This document shows positions 11,765-29,590 of a stretch of DNA of 64,000 nucleotides, one piece after another (within the stretch, counting starts at the first letter, position 1; the number at the start of each line of letters is the position of its first letter). A program made the translations under genes and the position numbers. This stretch comes from Scandinavium goeteborgense (lineage in GTDB: Bacteria > Pseudomonadota > Gammaproteobacteria > Enterobacterales > Enterobacteriaceae). Under the pieces are notes generated by a model that saw only the letters and a list, made by a program, of their open reading frames with translations, was not told the origin of the DNA and did no database searches. The DNA is taken from assembly GCF_003935895.2 (NCBI RefSeq), contig NZ_CP054058.1, positions 124,001 through 188,000 on the forward strand, written 5' to 3'.

Positions 11765-13219
11765 ATGTATATCGGCATCGATCTCGGCACGTCCGGGGTC
11801 AAAGTGATTCTGCTCAGCGAACAGGGCGACGTGCTGGCCTCGCACACTGAGAAACTGACCGTTTCGCGGCCACATCCGCTGTGGTCCGAGCAGGATCCTG
11901 AGAGCTGGTGGCGGGCGACGGACAGCGCGATGAAGGCGTTAGGTGCTCAGCATTCACTGGCTGAAGTGAAGGCGTTGGGCATCGCCGGACAAATGCACGG
12001 AGCTACGCTGCTTGATAAGCAGCAGCGGGTTCTGCGTCCGGCGATTTTATGGAATGACGGCCGCTGTGGTGAAGAATGTGCGTTGCTGGAGCGGGCAGTG
12101 CCGCGTTCGCGGGAAATTACTGGCAACCTGATGATGCCGGGTTTCACCGCGCCGAAGCTGCTGTGGGTCAAACGGCATGAGCCTGAAGTGTTTAGCCAGG
12201 TTGATAAAGTGCTGTTGCCAAAAGATTTTCTGCGTTTGCGTATGACCGGCGAGTTCGCCAGTGATATGTCGGACGCGGCGGGCACCCTGTGGATGGACGT
12301 GGCTCAGCGCGACTGGAGCGACGAATTACTTCAGGCCTGCGAGTTAAGCCGCGACAACATGCCGGCGCTGTTTGAAGGCAGTGAGATTACCGGCACGCTG
12401 CTGCCGTCGGTGGCGCAGGCGTGGAACATGCCCGCGGTGCGCGTGGTGGCCGGTGGCGGTGATAACGCGGCGGGCGCTGTGGGTGTGGGGATGGCCGATG
12501 CCGGTCAGGCGATGCTGTCGCTTGGCACATCAGGCGTTTATTTTGCCGTCAGTAACGGCTTCCTCAGTAAACCGGAAAGCGCGGTGCACAGTTTCTGTCA
12601 TGCGCTGCCGGGCCGTTGGCACTTGATGTCGGTGATGCTGAGCGCCGCATCCTGTCTCGACTGGGCAGCAAAACTGACGGGCCTGGGCGACGTTCCGGCT
12701 CTGCTGGCGGCGGCGCAAACGGCGGATAAAAACGCCGATCCGGTGTGGTTCCTCCCGTACCTCTCCGGGGAGCGGACTCCGCATAACAACCCGAATGCCA
12801 AAGGCGTCTTTTTCGGCCTGACACACCAGCATGGCCCCGCCGAACTGGCGCTGGCGGTGCTGGAAGGCGTGGGCTTTGCGTTGGCTGACGGAATGGACGT
12901 GGTGCATGGCTGCGGCATCACGCCGAAAAGCGTGACCCTGATTGGCGGTGGCGCGCGCAGCCCTTACTGGCGACAAATGCTGGCGGATATCAGCGGCATC
13001 GCCCTTGAGTATCGTACCGGCGGTGACGTCGGCCCGGCGTTGGGTGCGGCCCGTCTGGCGCAGCTGGCGATGCACCCAGATATTCCGGTGACGGAGCTCT
13101 TGCCGCAGCTGGCACTTGAGCAAACGCACCAGCCGGACGCCGCTAAAAACGCCGCGTATGCCCCACGTCGTGACGTTTTCCGCCGCCTGTATCAGCAGTT
13201 AAAACCGCTGATGTCCTGA
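11765..13219 (+). CDS. xylB: Xylulokinase XylB
   Basis: XylB phosphorylates D-xylulose to xylulose 5-phosphate, which feeds the pentose phosphate pathway. It is a FGGY-family kinase with 484 residues, the E. coli length. The N-terminal phosphate loop is IGIDLGTSGVKV, substrate contacts are in GQMHGATLLD, the catalytic Asp region is VAGGGDNAAGAVGVG, and the C-terminal ATP region is LIGGGARSPYWRQMLAD. AAGGAA precedes the ATG. An ERIC unit in the 193 bp gap from xylA could change the ratio of the two products. Confidence 0.98.
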   Translation: MYIGIDLGTSGVKVILLSEQGDVLASHTEKLTVSRPHPLWSEQDPESWWRATDSAMKALGAQHSLAEVKALGIAGQMHGATLLDKQQRVLRPAILWNDGRCGEECALLERAVPRSREITGNLMMPGFTAPKLLWVKRHEPEVFSQVDKVLLPKDFLRLRMTGEFASDMSDAAGTLWMDVAQRDWSDELLQACELSRDNMPALFEGSEITGTLLPSVAQAWNMPAVRVVAGGGDNAAGAVGVGMADAGQAMLSLGTSGVYFAVSNGFLSKPESAVHSFCHALPGRWHLMSVMLSAASCLDWAAKLTGLGDVPALLAAAQTADKNADPVWFLPYLSGERTPHNNPNAKGVFFGLTHQHGPAELALAVLEGVGFALADGMDVVHGCGITPKSVTLIGGGARSPYWRQMLADISGIALEYRTGGDVGPALGAARLAQLAMHPDIPVTELLPQLALEQTHQPDAAKNAAYAPRRDVFRRLYQQLKPLMS

Positions 13220-13258
13220 ATGCGCGGTTAGCTGTCCTTTTTTGACCTTAGCAAGACC

Positions 13259-13299
13259 CCTTTTCGTGGTCACAATGGTTTCACACCGACACGAAAAGG
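13259..13299 (+). promoter_or_regulatory. 10 bp inverted repeat covering the ribosome-binding site of the cysteine hydrolase gene
   Basis: CCTTTTCGTG at 13259-13268 and CACGAAAAGG at 13290-13299 are perfect inverted copies separated by 21 bases. The right arm includes most of the AGGAG ribosome site (13297-13301) of the gene starting at 13309. It could be an operator for the neighbouring regulator or an RNA stem that hides the ribosome site. Confidence 0.5.
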
Positions 13300-13308
13300 A
13301 GTCTCACT

Positions 13309-13848
13309 ATGTCCCGCACCGCTCTGATTAACATCGATACCCAGCAGTCTTTCGAACAGCGTAATTTTTGGCAGACCGCCGATTTACCGGCGTTTCAGAC
13401 CGCGATGCTGGGGCTGATTTCGGGCTGCCAGCAGCATAACATCCCGGTAGTCGACATTTTCCACGTCGACGACCAGGGGCCGTTTTCTCTCGAGAGCGGA
13501 TTCGTCAAACCCATGTCCTTTTTGAGCCATCAGCCGGAAGTCGTTTTTCACAAGCACGTCCATAACGCGTTTACCGACACTGGCCTCGACTTCTGGCTGC
13601 GCAGCCGCGATATCAATCACCTGATTATCTGCGGGCTGCGTACCGAACAGTGCTGCGAAACCACCACGCGCGTGGCGTCCGATCTCGGTTATCAGGTGAC
13701 GTTTGTCACCGAGGCCACGCTGACCTTTCCGATGACGCATAAAGGCGTTACGCTGGATGTTGAGACGCTGCGCCACCGCACGGAAACCGTGCTGGAAGGG
13801 CGTTTTGCCACTGTCAAAACTGTAACGGAGACCCTTGAATCGCTATGA
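13309..13848 (+). CDS. Isochorismatase/nicotinamidase-family cysteine hydrolase
   Basis: The 179-residue product has the cysteine hydrolase layout: Asp10 in LINIDTQQSF, a central HKHVHNAFTDTGLDFWL segment with the usual Lys, and the nucleophile Cys region LIICGLRTEQCCETTTR. Family members hydrolyse amide or vinyl ether bonds in small molecules; the substrate cannot be told. The stop overlaps the start of the next gene by ATGA, so the two are translationally coupled. The pair sits between xylB and wecH, where E. coli K-12 has yiaA and yiaB, so it is a local replacement or insertion. Confidence 0.85.
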   Translation: MSRTALINIDTQQSFEQRNFWQTADLPAFQTAMLGLISGCQQHNIPVVDIFHVDDQGPFSLESGFVKPMSFLSHQPEVVFHKHVHNAFTDTGLDFWLRSRDINHLIICGLRTEQCCETTTRVASDLGYQVTFVTEATLTFPMTHKGVTLDVETLRHRTETVLEGRFATVKTVTETLESL

Positions 13849-14801
13849 CTACCGATGTCTGGTTCGTGATGCTGCCCGGCGTGCTGTCGCTTGATATGAC
13901 CGGCCCGGCAGAGACCTTTGTGCTGGCGGGCGATGCGTTTCGTCTGCATTACATCGGGCCAGACGCGCAGGTGCCGACCTCTATCGGCATGACGATGGGC
14001 AACATTCAGCCGCTACCGGATACGCTTCCGGCGGGAAGCCTGCTGGTGCTGCCCGGCGTATGCGATTCAAACCATTACTTTTCCACTCCGCAGGCGGAAC
14101 GGGTTCGCCGCTGGCTGACGCGCCAACAGCCCTTGCTGCACGCCGGGAAAATCACCCTGATGTGCGTATGTTCCGGTTCGCTGCTGGCGGCGAAAGCAGG
14201 GCTGCTGCACGGCGTACAGTGCACCACGCACCATGACGTGATTACGCGATTGAAGGCCGCCGCACCGGGGGCCATGGTCAAAGAGAACCGGATTTTTATT
14301 GAAGATAAAGGCATCTGGACCAGCGCCGGGATCACGTCCGGTATTGACCTGGCCCTGCATCTGATTAACCGGCTGTATGGCCCAGAGCGGGCGATGGCGG
14401 TGGCGCGAGAAATGGTGGTGTGGTTCCGCCGTTCCGGCGACGACCCGCAGCTTTCACCCTGGCTGCGCTATCGCAACCATCTGCATCCGGCGATCCATCG
14501 CGCGCAGGATGCACTGACTGCGGCTCCGCAGCACGCCTGGGCGCTGGTGGATATTGCCGCGCGGGCGCACGTCACTCCGCGCCATCTGACGCGGTTGTTC
14601 AAACAGCATCTGGGTGTCAGCGTGCGGGATTATCTCGAACAGCTTAGGCTGGCACTGGCAGAGCAGCGGTTGTTGCAGGGAAGTGGTGTCGAGCAGGCGG
14701 CACAGGCGGCGGGCTTTACCTCTGCCCGCCAGCTGCACCGCGCCCGTCAGCGGGCGTTAGCTGACCAGGCGTCGGGTGTCGATTCGCTGCACCAGCATTG
14801 A
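13845..14801 (+). CDS. GlxA-type transcriptional regulator (DJ-1/PfpI plus AraC HTH)
   Basis: The 318-residue protein has a DJ-1/PfpI-like domain (residues 1 to about 190) with the Cys elbow [15 protein letters not shown], then an AraC-family DNA-binding domain with two HTH motifs ([20 protein letters not shown] and [19 protein letters not shown]). This is the GlxA/FtrA architecture. It is coupled to the cysteine hydrolase by a 4 bp overlap and probably controls that gene or its substrate response. Its 3' end overlaps the 3' end of convergent wecH by 45 bp. Confidence 0.88.
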
Positions 14802-15752
14802 AAGCAGCAGGCTGCCCGCCAGCGTCGCACAGAAAATCCACACGATATCCAGTATTGGCCAGCTTTTAAGCTCCAGACCCCTGGCGCGCAGCGCGTGAAT
14901 GATCAGTGCATGAAAACCGTAAATCCCCAATGAATGCTGCGAGATGGTGCGTAATCCTGGCAGTTCGCGGCCATTTAGCGTGTTTTTCACCAACGTGAGC
15001 AGCGTAACGGCGCAGATAAACACCATCGGCCCGGCGTACAGATACCAGGTGTCGGCGAAGTTGCCGCGCCATTTCAGCTCGTGCAGGGTTCCGTGCGAGA
15101 TGACCCACACCGACGCGGCGAACAACGCGGCACACAGAAACGTCAGCGGTTTTTTGTCGGTGTCCATCATGCCCAACGCGCGGCCCAGCAGGCCGTACAG
15201 CACGTAATAAAACGTGTCGCCATCGATGTATAAATTTACCGGCAGCCATTGAAAACCCCCGGTTTTCAGCGGCACGGTATTGGGGTTCGCCACGATGCCG
15301 AGCACAATCATCAGCGCCAGCAACATCCAGCCATTGACACTTTTGACCTGAATCAGCGGCGAAAGCAGGTAAATCACGAAAATCGCGAAGAAAAACCACA
15401 GGTGATAGAACACTGGCTTTTGCAGCAAATATTTCAGCGACAGCTCAGCATTGATGTGGGTAAACAACAGGATATACGCCAGCGCCACCGCGCTGTAGAA
15501 CAGCAAACACAGGCCGATGCGCAGGAAATGACGCGGCTCAGCGCTGCGCTCACCAAAAAACAGATAGCCGGAAATCATGAAAAACAGCGGGACGCTGACC
15601 CGAGAAGCGGAGTTCAACAGGTTGGCGATATCCCAGTTGAGCGGGCTAATACTGTGGGCGTTGGTGATATACCAGGTCGTGGTGTGGATCATCACCACCA
15701 TCAGGCAGGCAATCCCTCGCAGGTTGGTAATCCAGCTAATCATTCCCGACAT
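14757..15752 (-). CDS. wecH: O-acetyltransferase WecH (YiaH)
   Basis: This is an acyltransferase-3 family membrane protein of 331 residues, the E. coli length, with about ten hydrophobic segments. E. coli WecH adds O-acetyl groups to enterobacterial common antigen. The family motif region is seen at the N-terminus ([22 protein letters not shown], with the conserved His) and in [19 protein letters not shown]. Its last 45 bases overlap the convergent regulator gene, a tight fit that may follow the local insertion. Confidence 0.93.
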
Positions 15753-15938
15753 CAGTTCCTCAAAAATAGGGTGATAAAAAAGTCTGACCTGTGATTGTAG
15801 CCGCTGTTGCCAGGGAAAAATCCGAGTTTACCGCCGTTGGCGAGTAGATAACGGAACGTATTCGCACAATGCGCGGTCAGAAAAAACAACTAGTCTTAAA
15901 ATGACAATAACAGGCAAAGAATAAGGCCGTAATTAAAA

Positions 15939-16241
15939 ATGATGATCAAGTCTTTCATGCCCTTGCTGATGATCACGATGCTGGCAGGGTGCAGTACGCA
16001 ACAGGCACCTGAACAAAAAGCGCAGCGCGCAAAAGTGGACCCGACAAGCTCGCTCAATATGGAGCACTTGTGTAAGGGTAAAGCGGCGGAGCGGTACAAT
16101 ACTGGTGCAGAGAGCGTGGACGTTACGGGGTTCGAGCAGTTCCAGGGCAGCTACGAGCTGCGAGGCTTTACGCCACATAAAGAGAGTTTCGTCTGTTCTT
16201 TCGATGCAGACGGCCAGTTTTTACACCTTTCGATGCGCTGA
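15939..16241 (+). CDS. ysaB: Small lipoprotein YsaB
   Basis: The product has 100 residues with a lipoprotein signal (MPLLMITMLAGC lipobox, LAGC with lipidated Cys20). The mature part has conserved Cys residues in MEHLCKGKAAERYN and SFVCSFDADG. It matches E. coli YsaB in length and in position immediately upstream of glyQ. Function is unknown. ATGATG allows a start at 15939 or 15942. Confidence 0.88.
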   Translation: MMIKSFMPLLMITMLAGCSTQQAPEQKAQRAKVDPTSSLNMEHLCKGKAAERYNTGAESVDVTGFEQFQGSYELRGFTPHKESFVCSFDADGQFLHLSMR

Positions 16242-16389
16242 GTGGCGGCGATGGCGGGAGGAAAAGTCTCACGTTTCCCCAATATTCCCTCAATTTTCCG
16301 CAAACAACGTCCATTCATACTGTATATCTCGCATCCAGCGGGTATACTTGACCCTTCCTTAAATCCACACGTATCCAGCACGAAAAATT

Positions 16390-17301
16390 ATGCAAAAGTT
16401 TGATACCAGGACTTTCCAGGGCCTGATCCTGACCTTACAGGATTACTGGGCTCGTCAGGGCTGCACCATTGTTCAACCACTGGACATGGAAGTAGGCGCT
16501 GGCACCTCCCATCCGATGACCTGTCTGCGCGCGCTGGGCCCAGAGCCGATGGCCACTGCGTATGTGCAGCCGTCCCGCCGCCCGACCGACGGTCGCTATG
16601 GCGAAAACCCGAACCGCTTACAGCACTATTACCAGTTCCAGGTGGTGATTAAGCCATCGCCGGACAACATTCAGGAGCTGTACCTCGGGTCTCTGAAAGA
16701 GCTGGGTATGGACCCGACCATTCACGACATTCGTTTCGTGGAAGACAACTGGGAAAACCCAACGCTGGGTGCCTGGGGTCTCGGTTGGGAAGTGTGGCTG
16801 AACGGCATGGAAGTGACGCAGTTCACGTACTTCCAGCAGGTTGGCGGTCTCGAGTGTAAGCCGGTTACCGGCGAAATCACCTACGGTCTGGAACGTCTGG
16901 CCATGTACATTCAGGGCGTAGACAGCGTTTACGACCTGGTCTGGAGCGACGGCCCGCTGGGTAAAACCACCTACGGCGACGTGTTCCATCAGAACGAAGT
17001 GGAGCAATCCACTTACAACTTCGAATACGCGGATGTCGACTTCCTGTTCTCCTGCTTCGAGCAGTATGAGAAAGAAGCGCAACAGCTGCTGGCGCTGGAA
17101 AACCCGCTGCCACTGCCTGCCTACGAGCGTATTCTGAAGGCCGCTCACAGCTTTAACCTGCTTGATGCGCGTAAAGCCATCTCCGTCACCGAGCGTCAGC
17201 GCTACATTCTGCGCATTCGCACCTTGACCAAAGCGGTGGCTGAAGCCTATTACGCTTCCCGTGAAGCCCTTGGCTTCCCGCTGTGCAACAAGAATAAATA
17301 A
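16390..17301 (+). CDS. glyQ: Glycine-tRNA ligase alpha subunit GlyQ
   Basis: GlyQ is the catalytic subunit of the alpha2-beta2 class II glycyl-tRNA synthetase. The 303 residues equal the E. coli length and show class II features: motif 1-like [19 protein letters not shown], motif 2-like [19 protein letters not shown], and the motif 3 region [11 protein letters not shown]. glyS follows after 9 bp with its ribosome site GAGG in the gap, so the subunits are made together. Confidence 0.98.
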
Positions 17302-17310
17302 GAGGCGGCC

Positions 17311-19380
17311 ATGTCTGAAAAAACTTTCCTGGTGGAAATCGGCACCGAAGAGCTGCCACCAAAAGCCCTGCGCAGCCTGGCGGAATCTTTTGCTGCGAAC
17401 GTTACTGCGGAACTCGATAACGCAGGCCTGGCTCACGGCAACGTTGAGTGGTTTGCGGCCCCGCGTCGTCTGGCGCTGAAAGTTGCCGCGCTGGCGGAAT
17501 CTCAGCCCGATCGCGAAGTCGAAAAACGTGGCCCGGCCGTGTCTGCTGCATTCGATGCAGAAGGCAAACCGAGCAAAGCGGCTGAAGGCTGGGCGCGTGG
17601 CTGCGGTATCACCGTTGACCAGGCCGAGCGCATGGTCACCGATAAAGGTGAATGGCTGCTGTACCGTGCGCATGTGAAAGGCGAAAGCGCCGAAGCACTG
17701 CTGCCGAACATGATTGTCTCGTCACTGGGCAAACTGCCGATCCCGAAACTGATGCGCTGGGGCGCGTCCGACGTGCAGTTCGTGCGTCCGGTTCACACCG
17801 TGACCCTGCTGCTCGGCGATAAAGTCGTACCTGCGAAAATCCTGGGTATCGATTCCGATCGAGTTATCCGCGGTCACCGCTTTATGGGCGAGCCAGAATT
17901 CACCATCGACAACGCCGATCAGTACCCGCAGATCCTGCTGGAACGCGGCAAAGTGATGGCGGATTACGAGCAGCGTAAAGCCAAAATCAAAGCGGATGCT
18001 GAAGAAGCGGCGCGCCAGATTGGCGGTAACGCTGACCTGAGCGAAAGCCTGCTGGAAGAAGTCACCTCGCTGGTCGAATGGCCGGTAGTACTGACGGCGA
18101 AATTCGAAGAGAAATTCCTCGCCGTTCCGGCTGAAGCGCTGGTGTACACCATGAAGGGTGACCAGAAGTACTTCCCGGTCTATGGCAACGACGGCAAGCT
18201 ACTGCCGAACTTCATTTTCGTCACCAACATCGAATCGAAAGATCCGGTGCAGATTATTTCCGGTAACGAGAAAGTGGTTCGTCCGCGTCTGGCGGATGCG
18301 GAATTCTTCTTCAACTCCGACCGTAAAAAGCGTCTGGAAGATCATCTGCCGCGTCTGCAGACCGTGCTGTTCCAGCAACAGCTGGGCACGCTGCGTGACA
18401 AAACTGACCGTATTCAGGCCCTGGCGGGCTGGATTGCGGGCCAGATTGGCGCTGACGTTAACCACGCGACCCGCGCGGGCCTGTTGTCCAAGTGCGACCT
18501 GATGACCAACATGGTGTTCGAGTTTACCGACACCCAGGGCATCATGGGCATGCACTATGCGCGTCACGACGGCGAAGCCGAAGACGTAGCCGTTGCGTTG
18601 AACGAGCAGTATCAGCCGCGTTTTGCGGGCGATGATCTGCCGTCTAACCCGGTAGCGTGCGCGGTGGCGATTGCCGATAAGATGGATACCCTCGCAGGTA
18701 TCTTCGGTATCGGCCAGCATCCAAAAGGCGACAAAGATCCGTTCGCCCTGCGTCGTGCTGCGCTGGGCGTGCTGCGTATCATCGTTGAGAAGAACCTCAA
18801 CCTTGATCTGCAAACGCTGACCGAAGAAGCGGTGCGTCTGTACGGTGACAAGCTGACCAACGCCAAGGTTGTCGATGAAGTGATCGACTTCATGCTCGGC
18901 CGTTTCCGCGCCTGGTATCAGGACGAAGGTTACACTGTCGACACCATTCAGGCGGTGCTGGCGCGTCGTCCGACCCGTCCGGCTGATTTCGATGCTCGCA
19001 TGAAAGCCGTGTCGCACTTCCGTTCTCTGGACGAAGCCGCTGCGCTGGCTGCTGCTAACAAGCGTGTCTCCAACATTCTGGCGAAGTCTGACGAAACGCT
19101 GAACGACGTGGTTCACGCTTCAGTGCTGAAAGACGCGGCGGAAATCAAGCTGGCGACGCATCTGGTCGTTCTGCGCGACAAACTGCAACCGTTCTTCGAT
19201 GAAGGTCGTTACCAGGATGCGCTGATTGAACTGGCTTCCCTGCGCGAACCGGTGGACGAGTTCTTCGAGAACGTGATGGTCAACGCCGACGAGAAAGACG
19301 TGCGTATCAACCGTCTGACGCTGCTCAGCAAGCTGCGCGAACTGTTCCTGCAGGTAGCGGATATTTCCCTGCTGCAGTAA
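17311..19380 (+). CDS. glyS: Glycine-tRNA ligase beta subunit GlyS
   Basis: GlyS is the large subunit that binds tRNA-Gly and is needed for charging. It has 689 residues, as in E. coli, beginning [20 protein letters not shown], the standard start of the family. A central HD-like region (around [14 protein letters not shown]) and a C-terminal anticodon-binding-like helical domain ([17 protein letters not shown]) are recognisable. It ends just before a strong terminator. Confidence 0.98.
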
Positions 19381-19399
19381 TCGGTTATACGTCTAAAGC

Positions 19400-19425
19400 A
19401 ACCCGCCGAAAGGCGGGTTTTTTTT
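19400..19425 (+). terminator. glyQS intrinsic terminator
   Basis: AACCCGCC (19400-19407), a GAAA loop, GGCGGGTT (19412-19419) and a run of eight T. A textbook Rho-independent terminator 20 bp after the glyS stop. Confidence 0.95.
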
Positions 19426-19441
19426 GCTGATAAAGTTCTAA

Positions 19442-19476
19442 AGCGCCCGGCGGCGCTACGCTTGCCAGGCCTACGT
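19442..19476. repeat. REP palindrome downstream of glyS
   Basis: GCGCCCGGCGGCGCTACG with CTTGCCAGGCCTACG has the form of an enterobacterial REP unit, an imperfect GC-rich stem ending in CCTACG. Only one copy is seen, so it is not a full BIME. Confidence 0.7.
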
Positions 19477-19521
19477 TCCGTCCAGTGCCTTGATGTTGTC
19501 GGCCCTATACGCGTCTGCGCG

Positions 19522-19980
19522 TTAGTACGCTCCCTCCAGAGAAACGATCCCGTCCTCCGTTTTCAGCCAACGCGGCGCTTTCAGCGTTCCGGCGAAATAG
19601 AACACCAGTTGATACAGTAAATCACGGATTGTCCGTTCGGTTTTCGTCGCCAGCGAACCGCTCAGCAATAGCTGGGTTAAAGCCTGACAGTAATCGCCTA
19701 GCTGGTCGGCTTCCATTTCCAGCGTCGGAAGGTCAGCAGGTATCTCCTCAACGGTCAGGCTGGCGACCAGATACGTCGGGATGGGCTCGAGCAGCGTGGG
19801 TTGCAGCAGGTCGAGACAGGCCGACAGTCGGCCGCACAGCGCCATTTTCTGCGCCGGATCGTCGCATTCCACTATTACTTCCACGAAACGTTCGCAGTTG
19901 TCTGCCAGTTCGGTGAAATCGGTTGTAGATGTAAACGGCACGGTAAACAGCATGCCGTCGAGAGTTGGGGTTATCGCCAT
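19522..19980 (-). CDS. Uncharacterised acidic protein, 152 residues
   Basis: I do not recognise this protein. From the ATG at 19980, with GGAGG eight bases upstream, it has 152 residues. It is acidic and mostly helical, with no signal peptide or membrane span, and two Cys-containing stretches (TELADNCERFVEVIVECDD and ALCGRLSACLDLLQP). The frame stays open upstream to 20103, but those codons lie in a heavily base-paired leader, so the ATG beside GGAGG is preferred. It is transcribed against glyS and shares the accessory interval with ccdAB. Confidence 0.6.
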   Translation of the reverse strand: MAITPTLDGMLFTVPFTSTTDFTELADNCERFVEVIVECDDPAQKMALCGRLSACLDLLQPTLLEPIPTYLVASLTVEEIPADLPTLEMEADQLGDYCQALTQLLLSGSLATKTERTIRDLLYQLVFYFAGTLKAPRWLKTEDGIVSLEGAY

Positions 19981-19988
19981 AGTGGCAG

Positions 19989-20256
19989 CCTCCGATGAGT
20001 GTTTTATTATCCCCACCGGAAAGGTCAATTCCCTGGTGGCGGACTGAGCGAAGTTGACCTTACCGGCCTCATCGGATACCGGCGCACCCGAAGGTGCCCT
20101 CACTCAGCCCACCATTGAGGTGTAGCAGAGCTCACGACATAACAGCTATGTCGCCGATGATGTTGGCAGGAGGTCAATCCCGACACCTGATGTGCAGGTG
20201 CGAAGCGACAATACTGCTGACCGAAATCGGCGACAACGTTTTTCCACTGTATAAGT
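19989..20256 (-). promoter_or_regulatory. Structured leader RNA of the 152-residue gene, with alternative stems
   Basis: Read leftward, the leader holds in order an outer stem pairing 20226-20234 with 20150-20158 (9 bp) enclosing 20218-20222/20172-20176 and hairpin 20195-20200/20184-20189; a 7 bp hairpin 20147-20153/20135-20141; a GCACC-TTCG-GGTGC hairpin at 20084-20097; and a 9 bp stem 20068-20076/19991-19999 enclosing a 12 of 13 bp stem 20054-20066/20016-20028. The first two stems share 20150-20153, so they exclude each other. The last stem covers part of the GGAGG ribosome site. The TTCG loop favours RNA on this strand. Confidence 0.55.
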
Positions 20257-20262
20257 GTGGAT

Positions 20263-20290
20263 ATTATCATTTCCTGAAGCATGCCCGCAA
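20263..20290 (-). promoter_or_regulatory. Candidate promoter for the structured leader
   Basis: On the minus strand, TTGCGG (20285-20290) and GATAAT (20263-20268, 5 of 6 to the consensus -10) are 16 bp apart. Transcription would start near 20256 and give a leader of about 275 bases before the ATG at 19980. Confidence 0.4.
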
Positions 20291-20388
20291 AACACTGCCA
20301 GCACGCATATTTCAGACAAATGTTATGGCACGAAAGTAAGAGTGTGGCTTATGTCTCAAAGAGATACACCTTCTTAAAGGTACTTAAC

Positions 20389-20451
20389 ATGCGTAGATAT
20401 CGTGGCGTAATTACGGCAGCGGTTACCGCTCTGAGCCTGTCTCATCAGTAA
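20389..20451 (+). CDS. Possible 20-residue leader peptide or gene remnant
   Basis: An ATG at 20389 opens a short frame, MRRYRGVITAAVTALSLSHQ, ending in TAA. AAAGG is eight bases upstream. The peptide looks like the start of an export signal that stops early. A hairpin with a TTCG loop (20453-20472) follows, without a T tract. It could be a leader peptide or the broken start of a lost exported protein. Confidence 0.2.
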   Translation: MRRYRGVITAAVTALSLSHQ

Positions 20452-20613
20452 TGAATCGTCTTCGGGCGATTCGTTACCCCGGGTATTTTCTGAAGCGTGT
20501 TCGCAAAACTCACCTTTAAACTATCGTCTGTGTTGTTATTGCGTGACGGCAAACTTTGGGTTTGCTACTACAAGAACCGGATATGAGACCAACGCACTCT
20601 GGCAGATACTGAA

Positions 20614-20669
20614 TTGCCATCTGTGTGAATTTTGCGCATACTAATGACATGTGCATTTTACACGTGTAA
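20614..20669 (+). promoter_or_regulatory. Promoter and palindromic operator of ccdAB
   Basis: TTGCCA (20614-20619) and CATACT (20637-20642) are 17 bp apart. Downstream lies a perfect 12 bp palindrome TTACACGTGTAA (20658-20669) ending 12 bp before the ccdA start. CcdA-type ribbon-helix-helix antitoxins repress their own operon through palindromes in this position, so autoregulation is likely. Confidence 0.6.
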
Positions 20670-20681
20670 TTGAGGCCTTTT

Positions 20682-20921
20682 ATGCCAGGTATGAGTGTTC
20701 GACATAAAAAAACAGTCAGCGTGACCCTGGAGCCAGCATTACTTCAGCAGGCCCGAGAGGCCGGTATCAACCTGTCGGCAGTCCTGACTGCGGCACTGCA
20801 ACAGGAGATAAGTGCTTCTGGGGCTGAACGTTGGAAACAAGAAAACAGAGCTGGCCTGCAGGAACTCAATCGTATAACCGATGAACAGGGCTTACTGTCG
20901 GATGATTACAGGACGTTTTAA
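20682..20921 (+). CDS. ccdA: Type II antitoxin, CcdA family
   Basis: The 79-residue product begins with a ribbon-helix-helix DNA-binding segment (KKTVSVTLEPALLQQAREAG then INLSAVLTAALQQEI) and ends with a toxin-binding tail (AERWKQENRAGLQELNRITD). The AERWKxEN motif is characteristic of CcdA. GAGG lies six bases before the ATG at 20682; a TTG at 20670 is not needed. It neutralises the CcdB encoded 2 bp downstream and probably represses the operon. Confidence 0.88.
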   Translation: MPGMSVRHKKTVSVTLEPALLQQAREAGINLSAVLTAALQQEISASGAERWKQENRAGLQELNRITDEQGLLSDDYRTF

Positions 20922-20923
20922 TC

Positions 20924-21232
20924 ATGCAATATGTCGTCTACCGTAATAATGGAAATAGTCAGGTATACCCTTTTTTGCTGGATGTTCAGAGCGACATCAT
21001 CGAGGAACTCACTACCCGAGTCGTTATCCCCTTGTATCCGCTGAGCCGACTCACGACGAAACCGGTCAGACGCCTGACACCGATCCTGAACATTGAAGGT
21101 AATGATTATCTGGTGATGACCCACGAAATGGCCAGTATCCGTCTGACCCAGATAGGTGATGAGGTGATGAATGCGCGACCCTACCGGCAGACCATCAAAA
21201 ATGCGCTGGATTTCATCTTTGACGGCTTCTGA
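20924..21232 (+). CDS. ccdB: Type II toxin, CcdB family (gyrase poison)
   Basis: The 102-residue protein matches CcdB along its length: MQYVVYRN start, LLDVQSDIIEEL, RVVIPLYPLSR, LVMTHEMASI and a C-terminal helix IKNALDFIF. CcdB of plasmid F traps the GyrA-DNA complex and ends in Trp-Gly-Ile, which is needed for killing. Here the last three residues are Asp-Gly-Phe. Some chromosomal and Vibrio homologues also lack the Trp, so loss of toxicity cannot be assumed. Confidence 0.9.
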   Translation: MQYVVYRNNGNSQVYPFLLDVQSDIIEELTTRVVIPLYPLSRLTTKPVRRLTPILNIEGNDYLVMTHEMASIRLTQIGDEVMNARPYRQTIKNALDFIFDGF

Positions 21233-21428
21233 GCATTTATCAAAACAGAATTTACTGGCCAACATTTAGCCTTGAAACCCCGCCCAAATTACGGGTATCC
21301 TGTCTCTCGACTTTTCTCTTCTCTCTGGAGCGCATCCCGAAAATGAACAATCACGACTGATGAATTCGGCCCTGGCATAACGCAATCGCGTTGGCGGGGA
21401 TGGTTTTTGATTTCATTCAGGAGTGCTT

Positions 21429-23051
21429 ATGGCTCATTTTTGTGCGCAATCCCCTGCGTTTATTTTGCATCAAGTCACCTGTCAATTTGCGACGGGCGAT
21501 ATTCTTTTTGGTCCTGTTGATCTCTCGCTTGAGCGTTCGCTTTGCGGCTTAGTTGGGCGCAACGGCAGCGGAAAAACTCGCCTGTTGCAGCTGCTTGCAG
21601 GCGCCGAAAAGCCTGCCCACGGGCATATCGAAAATTTTTCGACGGTGGCTTATGTCGCTCAGCAACCGCTGCTTTCTGCGCAAAGTACGCTGGCTGATTT
21701 ACTCGGCCTGACGGAGATATTTTCCGCGCTGCGTCGGGTAAACAACGGTGAGATGCAGCCCGAAGATAGCGATATCCTCGACGGTCACTGGGATATCACC
21801 GAACGCCTGAGTACGGCGTTTGCAGCGTTGTCGCTACCCGAGTTTGATGCTTATCGTCCGGCTTCTTCATTGAGCGGCGGCGAACGCGTGAAGGCGTTGC
21901 TGTGCGCCGCGTTTCTTTCCGGGGCTGATTTTCTGCTGCTCGACGAACCGACTAACCATCTGGATAGTGCCGGGCGGGTGTGGTTTTATCAGCAGCTTGC
22001 ACAGTGGCGCGGCGGGGCGCTGATTGCCAGCCACGATCGCGACTTACTGGCGCAGGTGCCGCATATTCTCGAGCTCTCCGCCGGGAATTTGCGCCATTAC
22101 GGCGGTAATTTTGATGTGTACCAGCAGCAGCGAGAGGCCGAACAGCAGGCGGCCCGTTCGGCGCTCGAACATGCGGCAACCGAGCGGCGACGTACCCGCG
22201 CCCGGTTGCAAAAGGAGCACGATAACAGCCAGCGACGCTCTGCGCAGACCCTTCGCACCGTGGATTCCCTGAACATCGCCTCGTTTGAGCGCGTGGCCTA
22301 TAAAGGCGCGGCCAAAGCCCGGCCCGGCACTTTGCGCCGTCAGCATCATGAACAGAACGAAGCGTTGAACGCGGCGGTTAACCATGCGCGTGAACGCGTG
22401 GAGGATGAAACGCCGGTGATGATGACGCTGCCGGGCAACCAGGTTGCAGCGGGCAAACAGGTTCTGGAGGTTAACGATCTGGTCCTGGCGCACTCCCCAA
22501 TTGCGCCGCTGAACTGGCGCATGGATGGCCCCATGCGCGTGGCGCTGCGTGGGCCAAACGGCTGCGGGAAAACCACGCTGTTGAAAACGCTTCTCGGGCT
22601 GGAAGTGCCGGTGAGCGGTAGCTGTCATCTATCGGTAAATGCGGCCTGGCTCGATCAGCATCTGAGTCAGTTCAGCCTGTCGCTGTCGGTGATGGAGCAT
22701 CTGAGTCTGGCGGATACGCCGCTGGAAGAAGGGGTGCTGCGCAGCCGCCTGGCGCAGCTGCAGTTGACCGCGGATAAAGTGGGTTTGCCGCTGTCATCAT
22801 TGAGCGGGGGCGAACGCCTGAAGGCCGCGCTGGCCAGCGTGCTCTGGCGGCGGGAAGCGACCCAGCTGTTGCTCCTGGATGAGCCGACCAATCACCTGGA
22901 TCTGGCCTCGACGCAGGCGATAGAAGCCGCGCTGGCGAACTTCCCCGGCGCGATGCTGGTGGTCTCTCATGACGAGGCTTTTTTACGCGGGCTGAAATTG
23001 ACGCACACACTCGAATGGCAGGCGACGGGCTGGGTATTCACGGCGCGGTGA
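21429..23051 (+). CDS. ABC-F family ATPase
   Basis: The 540-residue protein has two ABC ATPase domains and no membrane segments, the ABC-F layout. Domain 1 has Walker A GRNGSGKT (43-50), signature LSGGERVKALL and Walker B FLLLDEPTNHLD. A charged, Arg-rich linker follows, then domain 2 with GPNGCGKTTLLK, LSGGERLKAAL and LLLLDEPTNHLD. ABC-F proteins act on the ribosome as translation factors or antibiotic-protection factors; which applies here is unknown. The ATG at 21429 has AGGAG five bases upstream. In E. coli this interval holds hokA and cspA instead. Confidence 0.9.
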   Translation: MAHFCAQSPAFILHQVTCQFATGDILFGPVDLSLERSLCGLVGRNGSGKTRLLQLLAGAEKPAHGHIENFSTVAYVAQQPLLSAQSTLADLLGLTEIFSALRRVNNGEMQPEDSDILDGHWDITERLSTAFAALSLPEFDAYRPASSLSGGERVKALLCAAFLSGADFLLLDEPTNHLDSAGRVWFYQQLAQWRGGALIASHDRDLLAQVPHILELSAGNLRHYGGNFDVYQQQREAEQQAARSALEHAATERRRTRARLQKEHDNSQRRSAQTLRTVDSLNIASFERVAYKGAAKARPGTLRRQHHEQNEALNAAVNHARERVEDETPVMMTLPGNQVAAGKQVLEVNDLVLAHSPIAPLNWRMDGPMRVALRGPNGCGKTTLLKTLLGLEVPVSGSCHLSVNAAWLDQHLSQFSLSLSVMEHLSLADTPLEEGVLRSRLAQLQLTADKVGLPLSSLSGGERLKAALASVLWRREATQLLLLDEPTNHLDLASTQAIEAALANFPGAMLVVSHDEAFLRGLKLTHTLEWQATGWVFTAR

Positions 23052-23054
23052 TCA

Positions 23055-23076
23055 AAAACCCCCGCAGTTGCGGGGG
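23055..23076 (-). terminator. Terminator of yiaG, shared with convergent ABC-F gene
   Basis: A perfect 7 bp stem, CCCCCGC (23059-23065) with GCGGGGG (23070-23076), is followed on the minus strand by TTTTT. It lies 3 bp after the ABC-F stop and 14 bp after the yiaG stop. On the plus strand it lacks a T tract. Confidence 0.85.
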
Positions 23077-23089
23077 TCAGTTAACACCG

Positions 23090-23380
23090 TTATTTCATAA
23101 GCTGTCTGGTCAATCGGGGATCAGCCTGGATCAGACGCATCAACTTTAGCTCGGCAGGTGAGGGTTTTTCTCGTCTCGATTCCCACTCATGTACCATTGC
23201 TACGCTGACGCCCATCGCGCGGGCAAAATCATCGATCTTCAAACCGGAGCCTTTACGCAGTTGCTCAAACTCAGTAAAGGCTGTGGGCTTTTGGGTCAGG
23301 GTCATTCTCTGTGAATCATCTTTGAAAACAATTTGTTCAAGACTGCTCAGCAGTTCGTACATAGGGTCTTTATTTGTCAT
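23090..23380 (-). CDS. yiaG: HTH-type regulator YiaG
   Basis: This 96-residue protein matches E. coli YiaG in length. It has a Cro/C1-type helix-turn-helix in the second half (LKIDDFARAMGVSVAMVHEW, then ESRREKPSPAELKLMRL). The layout resembles the HigA/MqsA-type DNA-binding domains of antitoxin-like proteins, but no partner toxin is adjacent. The targets are unknown. It converges with the ABC-F gene, and an ERIC element begins about 12 bp upstream of its start. Confidence 0.92.
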   Translation of the reverse strand: MTNKDPMYELLSSLEQIVFKDDSQRMTLTQKPTAFTEFEQLRKGSGLKIDDFARAMGVSVAMVHEWESRREKPSPAELKLMRLIQADPRLTRQLMK

Positions 23381-23392
23381 TGATAACTCCTC

Positions 23393-23518
23393 TTTACCCT
23401 TCAGACTTCAAGCTGTAGGTGCGTTGACGCCATCTGCTCACCCCAGCCACTTACTGGAGTAAGCGCCTGGGAGTTCTCAGGTTGTCGCCTGCCTGCAACT
23501 CGAATTATTTAGGGTATA
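23393..23518. repeat. ERIC element upstream of yiaG
   Basis: About 126 bp from TTTACCCTTC to GAATTATTTAGGGTATA, with the central TCACCCCAGCCACTTACT and CGCCTGGGAG cores of ERIC elements. It lies just before the yiaG start and probably within its leader. The remaining 23519-23722 shows no gene or clear site. Confidence 0.9.
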
Positions 23519-23722
23519 CATCTCACAGTGGGCACGTGAACAACAAAGAGCTTATTAAGGATAGTCAGTAAAAAGGGTGAGGGGTGGTCACGGGGGTGAT
23601 TATTTGTGCGGTATCTTTTGCGTGACCCGATTCAGCCTTTCGTAGGGGTCGACTAATTATTTGATAAAGATACGGGAAAGTTGTTCAGCGCAATTTTTGT
23701 AAATCGTAAGTAAAAATGTGGC

Positions 23723-23750
23723 AAACGGCGGGCGCTGACACCCGCCGTTT
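23723..23750 (-). terminator. Terminator of the AAHS-type MFS gene
   Basis: A 10 bp perfect stem, AAACGGCGGG (23723-23732) with CCCGCCGTTT (23741-23750), is followed on the minus strand by GCCACATTTTT. It begins 5 bp after the MFS stop. Confidence 0.8.
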
Positions 23751-23755
23751 ACCCG

Positions 23756-25123
23756 TCAGGCCTTTTGTGTCGCCTTGCCAACCGATGCGGCAGTGTTTTC
23801 AACCGGGCGATCGGTTTTGGTCATGGCGTATTTCACCATCAGCGCGGTGGCGGAGAGCAGCGCCGGGATCGCCAGCAGCATGAAGATGGTTTCAAACGAT
23901 AGTTGCGCCTGCATCAGGAACACGCCGCTGAACGCCCCCAGAATGCCGCCGAAACGTCCAATGCCCAGCATCCACGCCACGCCCGTGGCCCGGCCCTGCG
24001 TCGGATAGAACCCAGCCGCCAGGGCAGGCATGGAAGACTGCGCCCCGTTCATGATGCTGCCTGCGATGAATACCATTACGCCCATCAGCACCAGGCTGCT
24101 GGTGGAGAACCCGACCAGGCAGACGAACACGCCGGTCAGCAACCAGCCCACCGCGACCACTTTGTTCGGGTTAAATTTGTCCATTAGCGCCCCGAGTATC
24201 AGCACGCCAATTCCGCCGCCGAGTGGGAACAGGGCAGTAATGATGGAAGCCTGACTCATACTGGCGCCCGTTTCACGGATAAGCAGCGGCAGCCAGCTGG
24301 TCAGTAAATAGAAAATCAGCAAGCCCATGAAGTAGGTCAGGCACAGCATCACCGTGCCGAGCGCGTAGCGGGGCGAGAAAATGACCCCCAGCGCCGATTT
24401 ATCCTGTACCCCGCCCGCTTCGTGCAGCACAAAGCGCGTGTCGGCGGCGATCGGCGCAATACGACGCAGAATGGTCGCCACCTGCTGCTGCGATTTGTTT
24501 TTCGCCACCAGATAACGCGCCGATTCCGGCAGCAGGAAAATCAGCACAACGGCCAACACCAGCGGCATCACCCCGCCGAGGATCAGCACGCTTTGCCATC
24601 CGTACTGCGGAATTAACCACGCGGAGATAAACCCGCCGAGCGAGGAGCCAATCGGGAAGCCGACGAACATCAGGTTCACCAACAGGGACCGACGCCGTTC
24701 CGGGGCATATTCGCTCATCAGCGTGGCGGCGTTGGGCATTGCGGCACCGAGGCCAAGCCCGGTGAGGAAGCGCAGCAGCGTCAGCTGGTTGAGGCTAGTG
24801 GCCGCGGCGGTCATCAGGCTAAAACCCCCGAAGACCACAATGGAGAGGATCAGCACTTTTTTACGGCCAATGCGATCCGCCATCGGACCTGCGGTCAGTG
24901 CGCCGACGGCAAGCCCGACCAGCGCGGCGCTCATCACTGGGCCTAACGCAGATTTTTGTACGCCCCATTCCTGCACGAGGTCAGAGGCGATAAAGCCGAT
25001 AATAGCGGTGTCAAAACCGTCCATCGCTACGGTAATGAAACACAGCACGAGGATCATCCACTGGAATTTGGTGAAGGGATTCTCGTTAATAAAGGCCTGG
25101 ATATCGGTTGTTGTCTTTTTCAT
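23756..25123 (-). CDS. MFS transporter, aromatic acid:H+ symporter (AAHS) type
   Basis: The 455-residue protein has 12 hydrophobic segments and the MFS motif GPMADRIGRKKVL after helix 2. The start FQWMILVLCFITVAMDGFDTAIIGFIA, with the DGFDT motif in helix 1, is typical of the AAHS group (PcaK, BenK, MhpT). The substrate is probably an aromatic or similar carboxylate, but no catabolic genes adjoin it, so this is inference from family. AGGAA precedes the ATG. It stands alone, divergent from yiaF. Confidence 0.85.
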   Translation of the reverse strand: MKKTTTDIQAFINENPFTKFQWMILVLCFITVAMDGFDTAIIGFIASDLVQEWGVQKSALGPVMSAALVGLAVGALTAGPMADRIGRKKVLILSIVVFGGFSLMTAAATSLNQLTLLRFLTGLGLGAAMPNAATLMSEYAPERRRSLLVNLMFVGFPIGSSLGGFISAWLIPQYGWQSVLILGGVMPLVLAVVLIFLLPESARYLVAKNKSQQQVATILRRIAPIAADTRFVLHEAGGVQDKSALGVIFSPRYALGTVMLCLTYFMGLLIFYLLTSWLPLLIRETGASMSQASIITALFPLGGGIGVLILGALMDKFNPNKVVAVGWLLTGVFVCLVGFSTSSLVLMGVMVFIAGSIMNGAQSSMPALAAGFYPTQGRATGVAWMLGIGRFGGILGAFSGVFLMQAQLSFETIFMLLAIPALLSATALMVKYAMTKTDRPVENTAASVGKATQKA

Positions 25124-25514
25124 ATCGCGATTCCTGGGAGGTAAGTTGTGCGATTATCGAACGTAAATCCGTTAATCGTTCATCAATAAAACCATCAGGA
25201 CGCTTTTTCGACAACGTGCTGGCCGGGGGAAGCGTGCGATTATCGTCCGGTGGGCTGACATCAGCGCCAGTGAGCTTAATAAATCCTTATTGATTCATTA
25301 CGTTATAGTCATTGATGAGGGAGCCGGCAATATCATTAATTGTGATGCGGGCAACAAATTATTAACATTACGTCGTAAGTGAGGAAAGCGTGCGACTTTT
25401 CCCAACGCGAATGAAGGAAAGGGTATCCTGCAAGGCTTGTGTCGACTATCCTTGTCAGCGTCAGGCACGTGTGTGTGCCAGTTTGCGCTTTTTTTTGGCT
25501 GAAGGAGTATGAAA
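25124..25514. promoter_or_regulatory. Divergent MFS-yiaF gap with a 12 bp direct repeat
   Basis: In this 391 bp gap the 12-mer GTGCGATTATCG occurs at 25148-25159 and again at 25234-25245, 86 bp apart on the same face spacing of about eight helical turns. A GAACG/CGTTC inverted pair adjoins the first copy. Such spaced identical sites suggest binding of an unknown regulator upstream of the transporter. The yiaF ribosome site AAGGAG is at 25502-25507. Confidence 0.4.
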
Positions 25515-26225
25515 ATGGCGACAGGAAAGTCCTGCTCTCGCTGGTTTGCGTCTATTGCGGCGTTATTGATGGTAGTTAGCCTGAGTGGGTGTTTCGATAA
25601 AGAAGGCGATCAACGCAAAGCGTTCATCGACTTCCTGCAAAATTCCGTGATGCGTAGCGGCGAACGTCTGCCAACGCTGACCACCGATCAGAAAAAACAA
25701 TTTGGTCCGTTCGTTTCCGATTACGCCGTGATTTACGGTTATTCTCAGCAGGTGAGCCAGGCGATGGATGCCGGTCTGCGTCCGGTTGTGGACAGCGTGA
25801 ATGCGATTCGTGTGCCACAGGATTACATGACTCAGCGCGAACCGCTTCGTCAGGCTAATGGCGCGCTTGGCGTGTTGAGCCAGCAGCTGGAAAACGCCAA
25901 AATGCAGGCGGATGGTGCGCATTCAGCACTGAAACAGGCTGACGATCTGAAGCCGGTTTACGACCAGGTTTACAACAAAGTCGTGACCCTGCCAGCGAAC
26001 GCAATTCAGCCGCTGATCCCTGCCGCACAGATCTTCACCCAGCAGCTGGTGCAGATTGGTGATTTCGTGGCACAGCAAAATACGCAGGTAAGCTTCGTGG
26101 CGAACGGAATTCAGTTCCCGACGTCTCAGCAGGCGAGCCAGTACAATACGCTGATTGGCCCTCTGGCCGCTCAGCACCAGGCGTTTAATCAGGCCTGGAG
26201 CGCGGCGGTTAACGCCACGCGTTAA
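25515..26225 (+). CDS. yiaF: DUF3053 lipoprotein YiaF
   Basis: The product has 236 residues from the ATG at 25515, the E. coli length. AAGGAG lies seven bases upstream of this ATG but only one base from the alternative ATG at 25509, so 25515 is preferred. A lipoprotein signal ends in VVSLSGC. The mature part is helical and Gln/Ala-rich (QQLENAKMQADGAHSAL). The function of DUF3053 proteins is unknown. It converges on ghrB. Confidence 0.93.
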   Translation: MATGKSCSRWFASIAALLMVVSLSGCFDKEGDQRKAFIDFLQNSVMRSGERLPTLTTDQKKQFGPFVSDYAVIYGYSQQVSQAMDAGLRPVVDSVNAIRVPQDYMTQREPLRQANGALGVLSQQLENAKMQADGAHSALKQADDLKPVYDQVYNKVVTLPANAIQPLIPAAQIFTQQLVQIGDFVAQQNTQVSFVANGIQFPTSQQASQYNTLIGPLAAQHQAFNQAWSAAVNATR

Positions 26226-26234
26226 GCATTAAAG

Positions 26235-26257
26235 CCGGGTGGCGTCCTGTCACCCGG
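26235..26257. terminator. Terminator between yiaF and ghrB
   Basis: CCGGGTG (26235-26241) pairs with CACCCGG (26251-26257), followed by TCTCTTTCTC on the plus strand. It lies between two convergent stop codons. The T tract is interrupted, so it is of moderate strength. Confidence 0.65.
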
Positions 26258-26265
26258 TCTCTTTC

Positions 26266-27237
26266 TCATTTCACCTGCGGGTTCACGCAGTTCTTCTCAA
26301 TCTTTCCGTTTAACGCATCAATCAGGTTATCAACTGCCGTGGCCGCCATGTTGTAGCGTGTCTCATGGGTGGCAGAACCGATGTGCGGCAGCGCCACGAC
26401 GTTCGGCAGCGTGAGCAATTCTGACGACATCGGCAGCGGCTCCTGCTCGAACACATCCAGACCCGCCGCATGAATTTCTCCTGCTTTTAACGCAGCGATT
26501 AACGCGTTTTCATCCACCACCTGACCACGTCCGGCGTTAATGAAAATGGCCGATGACTTCATTTTGGCAAACTCGGCGGCACCGAACAGATGACGGGTTT
26601 CATCGGTCAGCGGCAGGATAGAACAGACAAAATCGGCTTCCTGAAGCAGGGTGCCGAGGTCGCAATGGCGCGCGTTAAAGCGCTCCTCTGCCTCTTTATG
26701 CTGACGGCGAGCGTTGTACAACACCGGCATCCCGAAACCGAAATGCGCACGCTGTGCCAGCGCTAAGCCGATGCGGCCCATCCCGACGATACCGATGGTT
26801 TTGTGGTGCACGTCGGTGCCAAACCAGTCCGGGCCAATGCCTTTGGTCCATTCGCCCGCTTTCACGCGTTCGGCCACTTCAAGCACCCGGCGCGCGCTAC
26901 TCAGGATCAACGCCATCAGCGTATCGGCCACGGTTTCCGTCAGGGCGGTCGGGGTGTGCATCAGCAAGACGCGGCGGGCGTTCAACGCATCGACGTCGAA
27001 ATTGTCGTATCCGACGGAAATGGTCGAGGTAGCACGCAGGGCAGGCATGTTATCCAGCAGCGCCGCATCGACCTTTTCGCTTGAGCCAAGCAGGCCCACG
27101 GCATTTTTGAACGCGTCGGCATTTTTCTGAACGGTATCCGCGTCCAGATTCGGCACTTTTGTGACTGAAAAATGCGCCTCAAGGCGGCGTTGTAAATCGT
27201 CAGGTAATGATTTGTAGAGAATGACGGACGGTTTCAT
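26266..27237 (-). CDS. ghrB: Glyoxylate/hydroxypyruvate and 2-ketogluconate reductase GhrB
   Basis: GhrB is an NADPH-dependent D-isomer-specific 2-hydroxyacid dehydrogenase of 323 residues (E. coli about 324). The Rossmann fingerprint [16 protein letters not shown] is in the middle, and the catalytic Arg, Glu and His are in [20 protein letters not shown] and LPHIGSAT. It is the last gene of the kguE-kguK-kguT-ghrB unit, the position of kguD in Pseudomonas. This points to reduction of 2-ketogluconate, or its 6-phosphate, to gluconate as its main job here. Confidence 0.95.
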
Positions 27238-27258
27238 TCCTTGCTCCAGATAAAGGGT

Positions 27259-28539: not shown

Positions 28540-28643
28540 AAGCGTGCCTCTGTTACTGAGGAAATGGCTACCGCGGTATGTAGGGTACAGGGTAGCGTTG
28601 TTTGGGTGTTTCGGTTGCTGCCGTCCGGTGTGTGATAAAGGGA

Positions 28644-29588
28644 TTACCCGGCCTCGCCGAGCGCTTCCCGGGTGGGTAATCCTTCGCTGTCGCCCTGGAC
28701 CTGAATCGCCAGCGAGCCAATTTTGTTACCGCGCGCCACCGCCTGCGGCAGAGTTTTGCCTTCGAGCAAGGCGCTGATGGTGCCAACCGCGAAGCCATCG
28801 CCTGCGCCTACGGTATCGACGACGTTCTCCACTTTTTCGGCGGTGACGCTGCCGTGTTCGCCATCCGCGCTCTGGAACCATGCGCCGTCGGCCCCGGTTT
28901 TAATCACCACCGCTTTTACGCCGCGGCTCAGGTAAAAATCAGCAATGCCTTCCGGCGTGCGCTGTCCGGTCAAAATAAAGCCCTCTTTCAGCCCCGGCAG
29001 CACCCAGTCGGCCTGACAGGCGAGATGATTCAGTTTCTCGACCATTTCCGCTTCGCTTTTCCACAGCACCGGGCGCAGGTTGGGATCAAAAGAGAGTGTT
29101 TTCCCGGCGCGTTTCATGCTATTCGCGGCGTGATTGAGCAGCTCGTAGGCGCTGTCAGATAACGCCGCCGCCACGCCGCTGAGGTGCAAATGACGGGCCG
29201 ACAGAAAGTGTGCGGAATCGAAATCATCTTTGCTGAGATGGCTGGCAGCGGAGCCTTTGCGGAAGTATTCCACAATGGGATCGGTTCCATTTTCGACTTT
29301 AGATTTCAGCTGAAAACCCGTCGGATAACGCCCGTCGACGGTGACACCCGCACGAACGATGCCTTCCTGTTTGAGCGAGTCCAGCACGAACTCGCCGAAG
29401 CTGTCATCGCCCACCCGGCTGACCCAGCTGACGCTCAGTCCGAGACGCGCCAGGCCGGTGGCGACGTTTAGCTCTGCTCCGGCCACGCGTTTGATAAACG
29501 ACTCTACCTGGCTAAGCGGCCCAGTTTTCTGGGCGACAAACATCGCCATAGCTTCACCGATAGTGATCACATCCAGTGTCTGATTCAT
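28644..29588 (-). CDS. kguK: 2-ketogluconokinase (PfkB/ribokinase family)
   Basis: This 314-residue PfkB-family sugar kinase begins LDVITIGEAMAMFVAQ and contains GGG-like substrate contacts (KRVAGAELNVATGLARLG). It ends with the ATP and catalytic-base signature NVVDTVGAGDGFAVG, whose Asp activates the sugar hydroxyl. KDG kinases share this fold, but the operon position between kguE and kguT supports 2-ketogluconate. It starts 2 bp after the kguE stop with GAGGAA overlapping that stop, so translation is coupled. Confidence 0.82.
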   Translation of the reverse strand: MNQTLDVITIGEAMAMFVAQKTGPLSQVESFIKRVAGAELNVATGLARLGLSVSWVSRVGDDSFGEFVLDSLKQEGIVRAGVTVDGRYPTGFQLKSKVENGTDPIVEYFRKGSAASHLSKDDFDSAHFLSARHLHLSGVAAALSDSAYELLNHAANSMKRAGKTLSFDPNLRPVLWKSEAEMVEKLNHLACQADWVLPGLKEGFILTGQRTPEGIADFYLSRGVKAVVIKTGADGAWFQSADGEHGSVTAEKVENVVDTVGAGDGFAVGTISALLEGKTLPQAVARGNKIGSLAIQVQGDSEGLPTREALGEAG

Positions 29589-29590
29589 GC

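Follow-up and report, generated by a model that had tools for sequence, protein, structure and literature searches.

What does the long, highly structured leader in front of a 152-residue gene on the chromosome of Scandinavium goeteborgense do, and to which class of RNA does it belong? Throughout, the window is the whole stretch analysed, 64,000 nucleotides of contig NZ_CP054058.1, and the leader and the gene lie on its minus strand. The preliminary description proposed two nested stem-loop elements and a pair of mutually exclusive stems, and suggested a riboswitch, an attenuator or an immunity-type leader. Its claim of strong structure was borne out: the 276 nt between 20256 and 19981 have a folding energy of -115 kcal/mol (z -4.67), which 0 of 200 dinucleotide shuffles equalled. 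The leader is genuine, and at its core is an RNA already described, the C4 antisense RNA of Rfam. C4 and CI RNAs serve phages and satellites as immunity RNAs; phage P1 and satellite P4 silence themselves with RNAs of this kind.

The C4 model (RF01695) matched positions 20119-20032 (minus strand) along all of its 87 positions, scoring 76.3 bits against a curated cut-off of 45 (E 3.8e-13). Two families, C4 and a tRNA, exceeded their Rfam cut-offs in the 64-kb window, and six C4 matches above the cut-off were found in the genome as a whole. Across 64 sequences (63 distinct rows), changes on both sides were observed in 21 of the 27 pairs of stems P1-P3, a count that none of 500 shuffles reached, and 99.1% of the stem cells were paired, against 32-45% in slid versions. 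The check for compensatory changes that had been proposed for the leader was thus passed for C4, and not for the competing stems. The second of the two nested elements is this C4 RNA, and the TTCG hairpin, present as described, is its stem P2 (20099-20084). A GGT near 20113, within GGTGG, is a putative RNase P type start, and by analogy RNase P would make the C4 5' end there.

Two sites of the C4 RNA are antisense to the leader itself. The seed AAGGTCAA (20054-20061) complements both the upstream box seqA, GGGATTGACCTCC (20169-20181, 7 nt), and the downstream box seqC, GAATTGACCTTTCC (20018-20031, 8 nt), while the loop of stem P3, TCCGATGAG (20068-20076), is complementary over 9 nt to the ribosome site CTCATCGGAGG (19989-19999), which precedes the start codon at 19980. 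C4 membership is also indicated by these two antisense sites, which match a target close to the ribosome site over 7-9 nt each. Both boxes are of the TTGACC type. The GGTCA/TTGACC repeats of the preliminary description are thus present, but GGTCAA is not the arm of a local hairpin; it is antisense to the two boxes. The GGAGG ribosome site does lie partly inside a stem in the minimum-energy fold, as had been proposed. The pattern of seqC and ribosome site occurred once in the window and in 0 of 100 shuffles.

Pairing between C4 RNAs and their own boxes was compared with that between swapped partners, using perfect 7-mers as the criterion. The sample comprised 82 of 99 C4 matches from 60 genomes, the source genome included; 3 of the 17 matches left out were below the cut-off. 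Own partners paired at seqC in 69 of 82 loci (523 of 6642 swapped combinations), at seqA in 69 of 82 (674 of 6642) and at the ribosome site in 60 of 82 (393 of 6642), so that swapped partners paired at single boxes at a rate of 6-10% in this set. The difference was largest for seqC and ribosome site jointly, with 55 of 82 own against 58 of 6642 swapped; pairing at neither of these two was found in 8 of 82 loci. A second set comprised 62 loci of named collections, some of them shared with the first set; here the three own-partner counts were 61, 60 and 54 of 62, and the swapped counts were 721, 794 and 655 of 3782 (19%, 21% and 17%). A swap test on duplex energy was weaker: the mean was -25.9 kcal/mol for own and -20.4 kcal/mol for swapped partners, the own duplex was stronger than all 40 swapped partners in 18 of 82 loci, and for the window locus 1 of 40 swapped partners was equally strong. 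At the level of predicted base pairing, two-site recognition of the leader by C4 is shown by this covariation.

When the leaders of 36 C4-led loci were aligned at seqA, the consensus showed a -35/-10 pair, a GCACCTGC...GCAGGTGC-like hairpin and then seqA. The conserved promoter in the window consists of TTGTCG at 20236-20231 and, 17 nt from it, TATTGT at 20213-20208. Because of these elements, transcription is predicted to start near 20201 and not near 20256, where the preliminary description had proposed to map the 5' end; the match to the isrK model begins at the same point, 20201. This bears directly on the two stems that were said to compete. The 7-bp hairpin (20153-20147/20141-20135) and the 9-bp outer stem (20234-20226/20158-20150) can both be drawn and share 20153-20150, but the outer stem overlaps the conserved -35 element and probably falls outside the transcript. 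If the start lies near 20201 the outer stem is absent from the RNA, and the competition as described is impossible. Furthermore, no riboswitch family matched at E up to 1 over 19400-21300, and the repeats are accounted for by C4. An attenuator or riboswitch built from two nested elements and mutually exclusive stems is hence hardly credible, even though its stems can be drawn and the fold beats shuffles.

The first part of the leader is of the isrK/seqA type. The isrK model (RF01394) matched 20201-20137 with 26.1 bits (E 0.0041, cut-off 50), and the model for C4 target sites, c4-a1b1 (RF03163), matched 20214-20163 with 34.9 bits (cut-off 46.7). The consensus of the 36 leaders has a T-run terminator, TTTTTT, behind seqA, whereas the window leader lacks this T-run; with a score below the cut-off and no intrinsic terminator of this kind, it does not qualify as an isrK member. 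Since the seqA-type and isrK scores are below their cut-offs and the T-run is missing, early termination at the window locus may be weakened or of another type.

We read the locus, with a probability of about 0.85, as a stand-alone one-gene chromosomal cassette controlled by a C4 antisense RNA of the P1 c4 / P4 CI type. The suggestion of an immunity-type leader as in P4-like satellites is upheld by the C4 score above the cut-off and by the two-site pairing pattern. From the promoter at 20236-20208, a leader would be transcribed that carries seqA, the C4 RNA, seqC and the ribosome site of a single gene. C4 would be released by RNase P and other enzymes, as extrapolated from P1 and P4, and the free RNA would pair with the leader, its 3' seed on seqA and seqC and its P3 loop on the ribosome site. 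Such pairing would stop transcription early and block translation, and the 152-residue protein would normally be off. Expression would follow dilution, titration or bypass of C4, for instance through a seqA-type RNA resembling isrK. The probable ancestor of the cassette is the immunity region of a satellite or prophage, the rest of which is not seen around it.

The 152-residue protein (19980-19522) is predicted to form a four-helix bundle (AlphaFold2 pLDDT 86.8, pTM 0.81). It matched no family above the cut-off in Pfam, PHROGs, NCBIfam, PADLOC or PDB sequences, and fold searches with the predicted structure returned generic helical bundles, with no function named. The gene is not the orphan that had been supposed. 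Seven family matches were found in its own genome, and matches occurred in 14 of 60 genomes, the source genome included (60 matches, up to 14 in a single genome, fragments included in both counts). Two peptide patterns gave a lower bound of at least 68 family loci in named genomes. All but a few of the records are named as Enterobacterales, and some labels look wrong (e.g. Chryseobacterium). The protein is a member of a sizeable unlabelled family of gut bacteria and their relatives.

The association of this family with C4 is widespread. For 38 of the 60 family matches, fragments included, the 400 nt upstream contained a C4 match on the same strand, and a C4 above the cut-off was found upstream of 61 of the 68 loci in named genomes, with isrK above the cut-off in 48 of 68. 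The seven loci without a C4 above the cut-off were L155, L159, L197, L183, L192, L204 and L205. Decayed C4 sequences were present in L197 and L183, L192 is the broken copy of genome G005 considered below, and covariance and profile searches found no C4 upstream in L204 and L205.

Several other RNAs and annotations were observed at family loci. In L155 and L159, sRNA-Xcc1 (RF02221) scored above the cut-off at 3838-3922, in the usual place of C4 before the family gene; it did so likewise in L026 at 1975-2059 (minus strand), and in L166 at 3572-3656 it lay upstream of a C4. Apparently L026 and L155 are one locus, and sRNA-Xcc1 may act like C4. In 18 of 68 loci (e.g. L150, 6220-6349) EFASI RNA (RF02957) was found downstream, at about 0.7-2 kb from the family gene; in the loci viewed it was at or just before a recombinase-like frame, and the one such frame scanned (L149) was Integrase_1. 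Among 5426 complete E. coli genomes, 2250 matched some part of 20290-19522 and 99 matched over at least 80%. Annotated names under the E. coli matches include 'ash family protein', overlapping the C4 part, and this annotation may in part be translated antisense RNA.

On one side the cassette is flanked by glyS (by eye), on the other by a CcdA/CcdB-type pair and an ABC ATPase gene. The pair lies at 20670-21232 on the plus strand; its second frame matched Pfam CcdB (4.4e-36), and its first frame was taken as CcdA-like only from its position and by eye. No integrase, AlpA or primase-type genes were seen among the open reading frames of 12000-30000 by eye or among four neighbours by Pfam. The satellite or prophage context that had been anticipated was not recognised beside the cassette, and the locus does not qualify as a P4-like satellite or PICI. 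Another C4 locus of the same genome (L001) does have a primase-like frame (by eye). At the corresponding glyS site, G001 carries a C4 and a 75% identical protein, with the seed GTTCCAA replacing AGGTCAA and boxes that match, and G003 carries a 61% identical protein with the seed AGGTCAA. At the G005 site the gene is broken, no C4 was detected at E 0.5, and a target-type match scored 41.5 bits. No cassette was found within about 1.5 kb of the site in G002, G004, G006 and G007, or at the site in five more distant genomes looked at. A ccdB-type gene without the cassette was present at the G006 site.

The lack of recognised integrase, AlpA or primase genes beside the cassette, the leader without the family terminator and the broken, C4-less G005 copy at the same site would all suit a dead remnant of a P4-like satellite, in which leader and gene persist by chance and are inert. 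We consider this very unlikely. The seed, the loop and all three boxes still match, three further C4-led family members in the same genome each have their own seed, and the G005 copy itself exemplifies what decay looks like. Moreover, dN/dS was 0.05-0.26 in 11 pairs (dS exceeded 1 in four of them, and those ratios are rough). For two relatives at the same site it was 0.13 (the G001 copy) and 0.17, with dS exceeding 1 in both. By these substitution ratios, the 152-residue protein is under purifying selection.

Among the matches listed, the genes behind other C4 RNAs looked, by eye, kil/Icd-like, Ner-like, Rha/antirepressor-like or SymE-like. A kil-type gene and a cassette gene look alike over their first codons and then diverge (by eye), which would suit an exchange of the gene behind a single leader. 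SymE-like genes (by eye) stand behind the C4 RNAs L047, L049 and L052 of G009; SymE is a gene controlled by the SymR antisense RNA. Single genomes had up to sixteen C4 matches (G028, two of them below the cut-off), with nine each in G009 and G032, and the protein search of 60 genomes found no family member in either of these two. A pentapeptide-repeat gene that looks to be of the Qnr type (by eye) was seen near another C4 cassette of the source genome (L005, 2624-3091, reverse complement).

The kil/Icd-like and SymE-like genes behind other C4 RNAs raise the question of whether the locus resembles a type I toxin-antitoxin module, with a toxic protein and C4 as the antitoxin. The G005 copy, which has lost its C4 and has a broken gene, would fit such a module, and weak SymR matches were found upstream of two C4-less family members (31.1 and 29.9 bits), but these are far below the cut-off of 61. 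Searches of Pfam, PHROGs and NCBIfam assigned the product to no toxin family. Furthermore, intact family genes are kept without C4 in L016, L017 and L098, which argues against acute toxicity. We regard the RNA-antitoxin explanation as somewhat unlikely. Our guess at the function, within the reading as a C4-controlled cassette, is a damage- or phage-responsive growth inhibitor, because kil/Icd-like and SymE-like genes occupy the same slot behind other C4 RNAs and because a sibling branch of the family has a LexA-type box.

Each of the seven genomes of the genus searched contained this C4-less sibling branch. A LexA-type box lies about 44 nt before the start in L018, L045, L099, L104, L105, L223 and L224. 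Five sibling members were among the 53 proteins of a half-site scan, and all five had CTGT-N8-ACAG, with no more than one mismatch, beginning 42-44 nt before the start; three other loci had distant matches, at -193 or -224. Against a LexA 20-mer consensus, all seven sibling members had 2-5 mismatches at the same place, and 4 of 2000 single-sequence shuffles were as good. Since the members are related, the box is one conserved site and not seven events. By the presence of a LexA-type box at the promoter, the sibling branch is a putative member of the SOS regulon and the window gene is not: the half-site scan found no such box at the window gene, and there was none in the window at 3 mismatches.

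The nearest upstream genes of the cassettes were compared with defence systems. From 65 loci with a usable upstream gene, grouped into 54 clusters, 30 were drawn at random. Seven of the 30 matched PADLOC at 1e-10, a raw, uncorrected rate, and the matches were AbiEi, a type I methyltransferase, PDC-S06 (twice), PDC-S21, Avs2 and Old. The other 23 had no PADLOC match; several of them resemble housekeeping genes. Outside this count, L107 follows an RT_UG5-nitrilase gene, and a DarT1/NADAR pair lies downstream of L149.

C4-type RNA gives immunity in P1 and P4, according to the excerpts of PMC12197685 and PMC10111431, and the host might keep the cassette for a trans-acting C4 that silences incoming satellites or phages with the same boxes, the protein being secondary. 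Some PADLOC neighbours, at the raw rate just given, and a partial sharing of seeds fit this idea; TTCCTAC, for example, is common to 5 of 37 cassettes and 3 of 8 loci of the kil type. A cassette C4 matched a kil-type locus at two sites in 2 pairs, one of them outside the seed proper, and the 15 viral stretches with the box pair of the window had no convincing C4 (profile, best E 0.3) and are probably chance. Such a role is quite unlikely in our estimation.

We tentatively propose, at less than even odds, a broader interpretation, in which bacteria have adopted a phage immunity RNA as a general gene switch. Mobile Enterobacterales cassettes, each C4 with its own matched seed and loop, would silence stress- or phage-responsive helical-bundle proteins, often beside anti-phage defence genes, and a settled branch would have passed to LexA. 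C4 RNAs accompany one uncharacterised protein family again and again, and their seeds change in step with the targets. Matched antisense switches of this kind are a natural set for studying how two-site RNA recognition evolves, in a protein family that is seemingly kept off mostly by RNA and in one branch by LexA.

Among known systems, the closest in layout is the P4 immunity region (seqA, CI RNA, seqC, kil/eta). In the excerpts of PMC10111431 and PMC4825925, the P4 scheme has the order seqA, CI RNA, seqC, gene, so that promoter, seqA, antisense RNA, seqC and gene follow one another as in the window, and there too the seed is complementary to both boxes. Unlike P4, the window cassette is without recognised satellite genes and the gene behind it is of another family; the second open reading frame behind satellite C4 RNAs gave no match to the 152-residue protein. 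With P1/P7 c4 (RF01695) and its a/b targets (RF03163) the cassette shares the C4 fold, above the cut-off. The available parts of PMC5320573 describe pairing of P1 c4 with the ribosome site, and together with those of PMC12197685 they place one antisense site on the ribosome site and the other on an adjacent box, as here. In contrast to P1 c4, which controls ant, the target in the window is a single helical-bundle gene, and the a1b1 model is below its cut-off. The Gifsy-1 IsrK locus of Salmonella (isrK-orf45-anrP) has an isrK-type leader in common with the cassette, although in the window the isrK match is below the cut-off, the terminator is missing and the gene differs from anrP; an excerpt of PMC4825925 compares IsrK with the seqA of P4 and provides an experimental switch. 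Finally, the dispersed C4-like 'Group 1' sRNAs of Acinetobacter baumannii, which have differing a' sites in the portion of PMC5320573 available, resemble the present case in that several C4-type RNAs occur in one genome. That portion describes them as sRNAs, whereas the C4 RNAs considered here are linked to a protein family with matching boxes.
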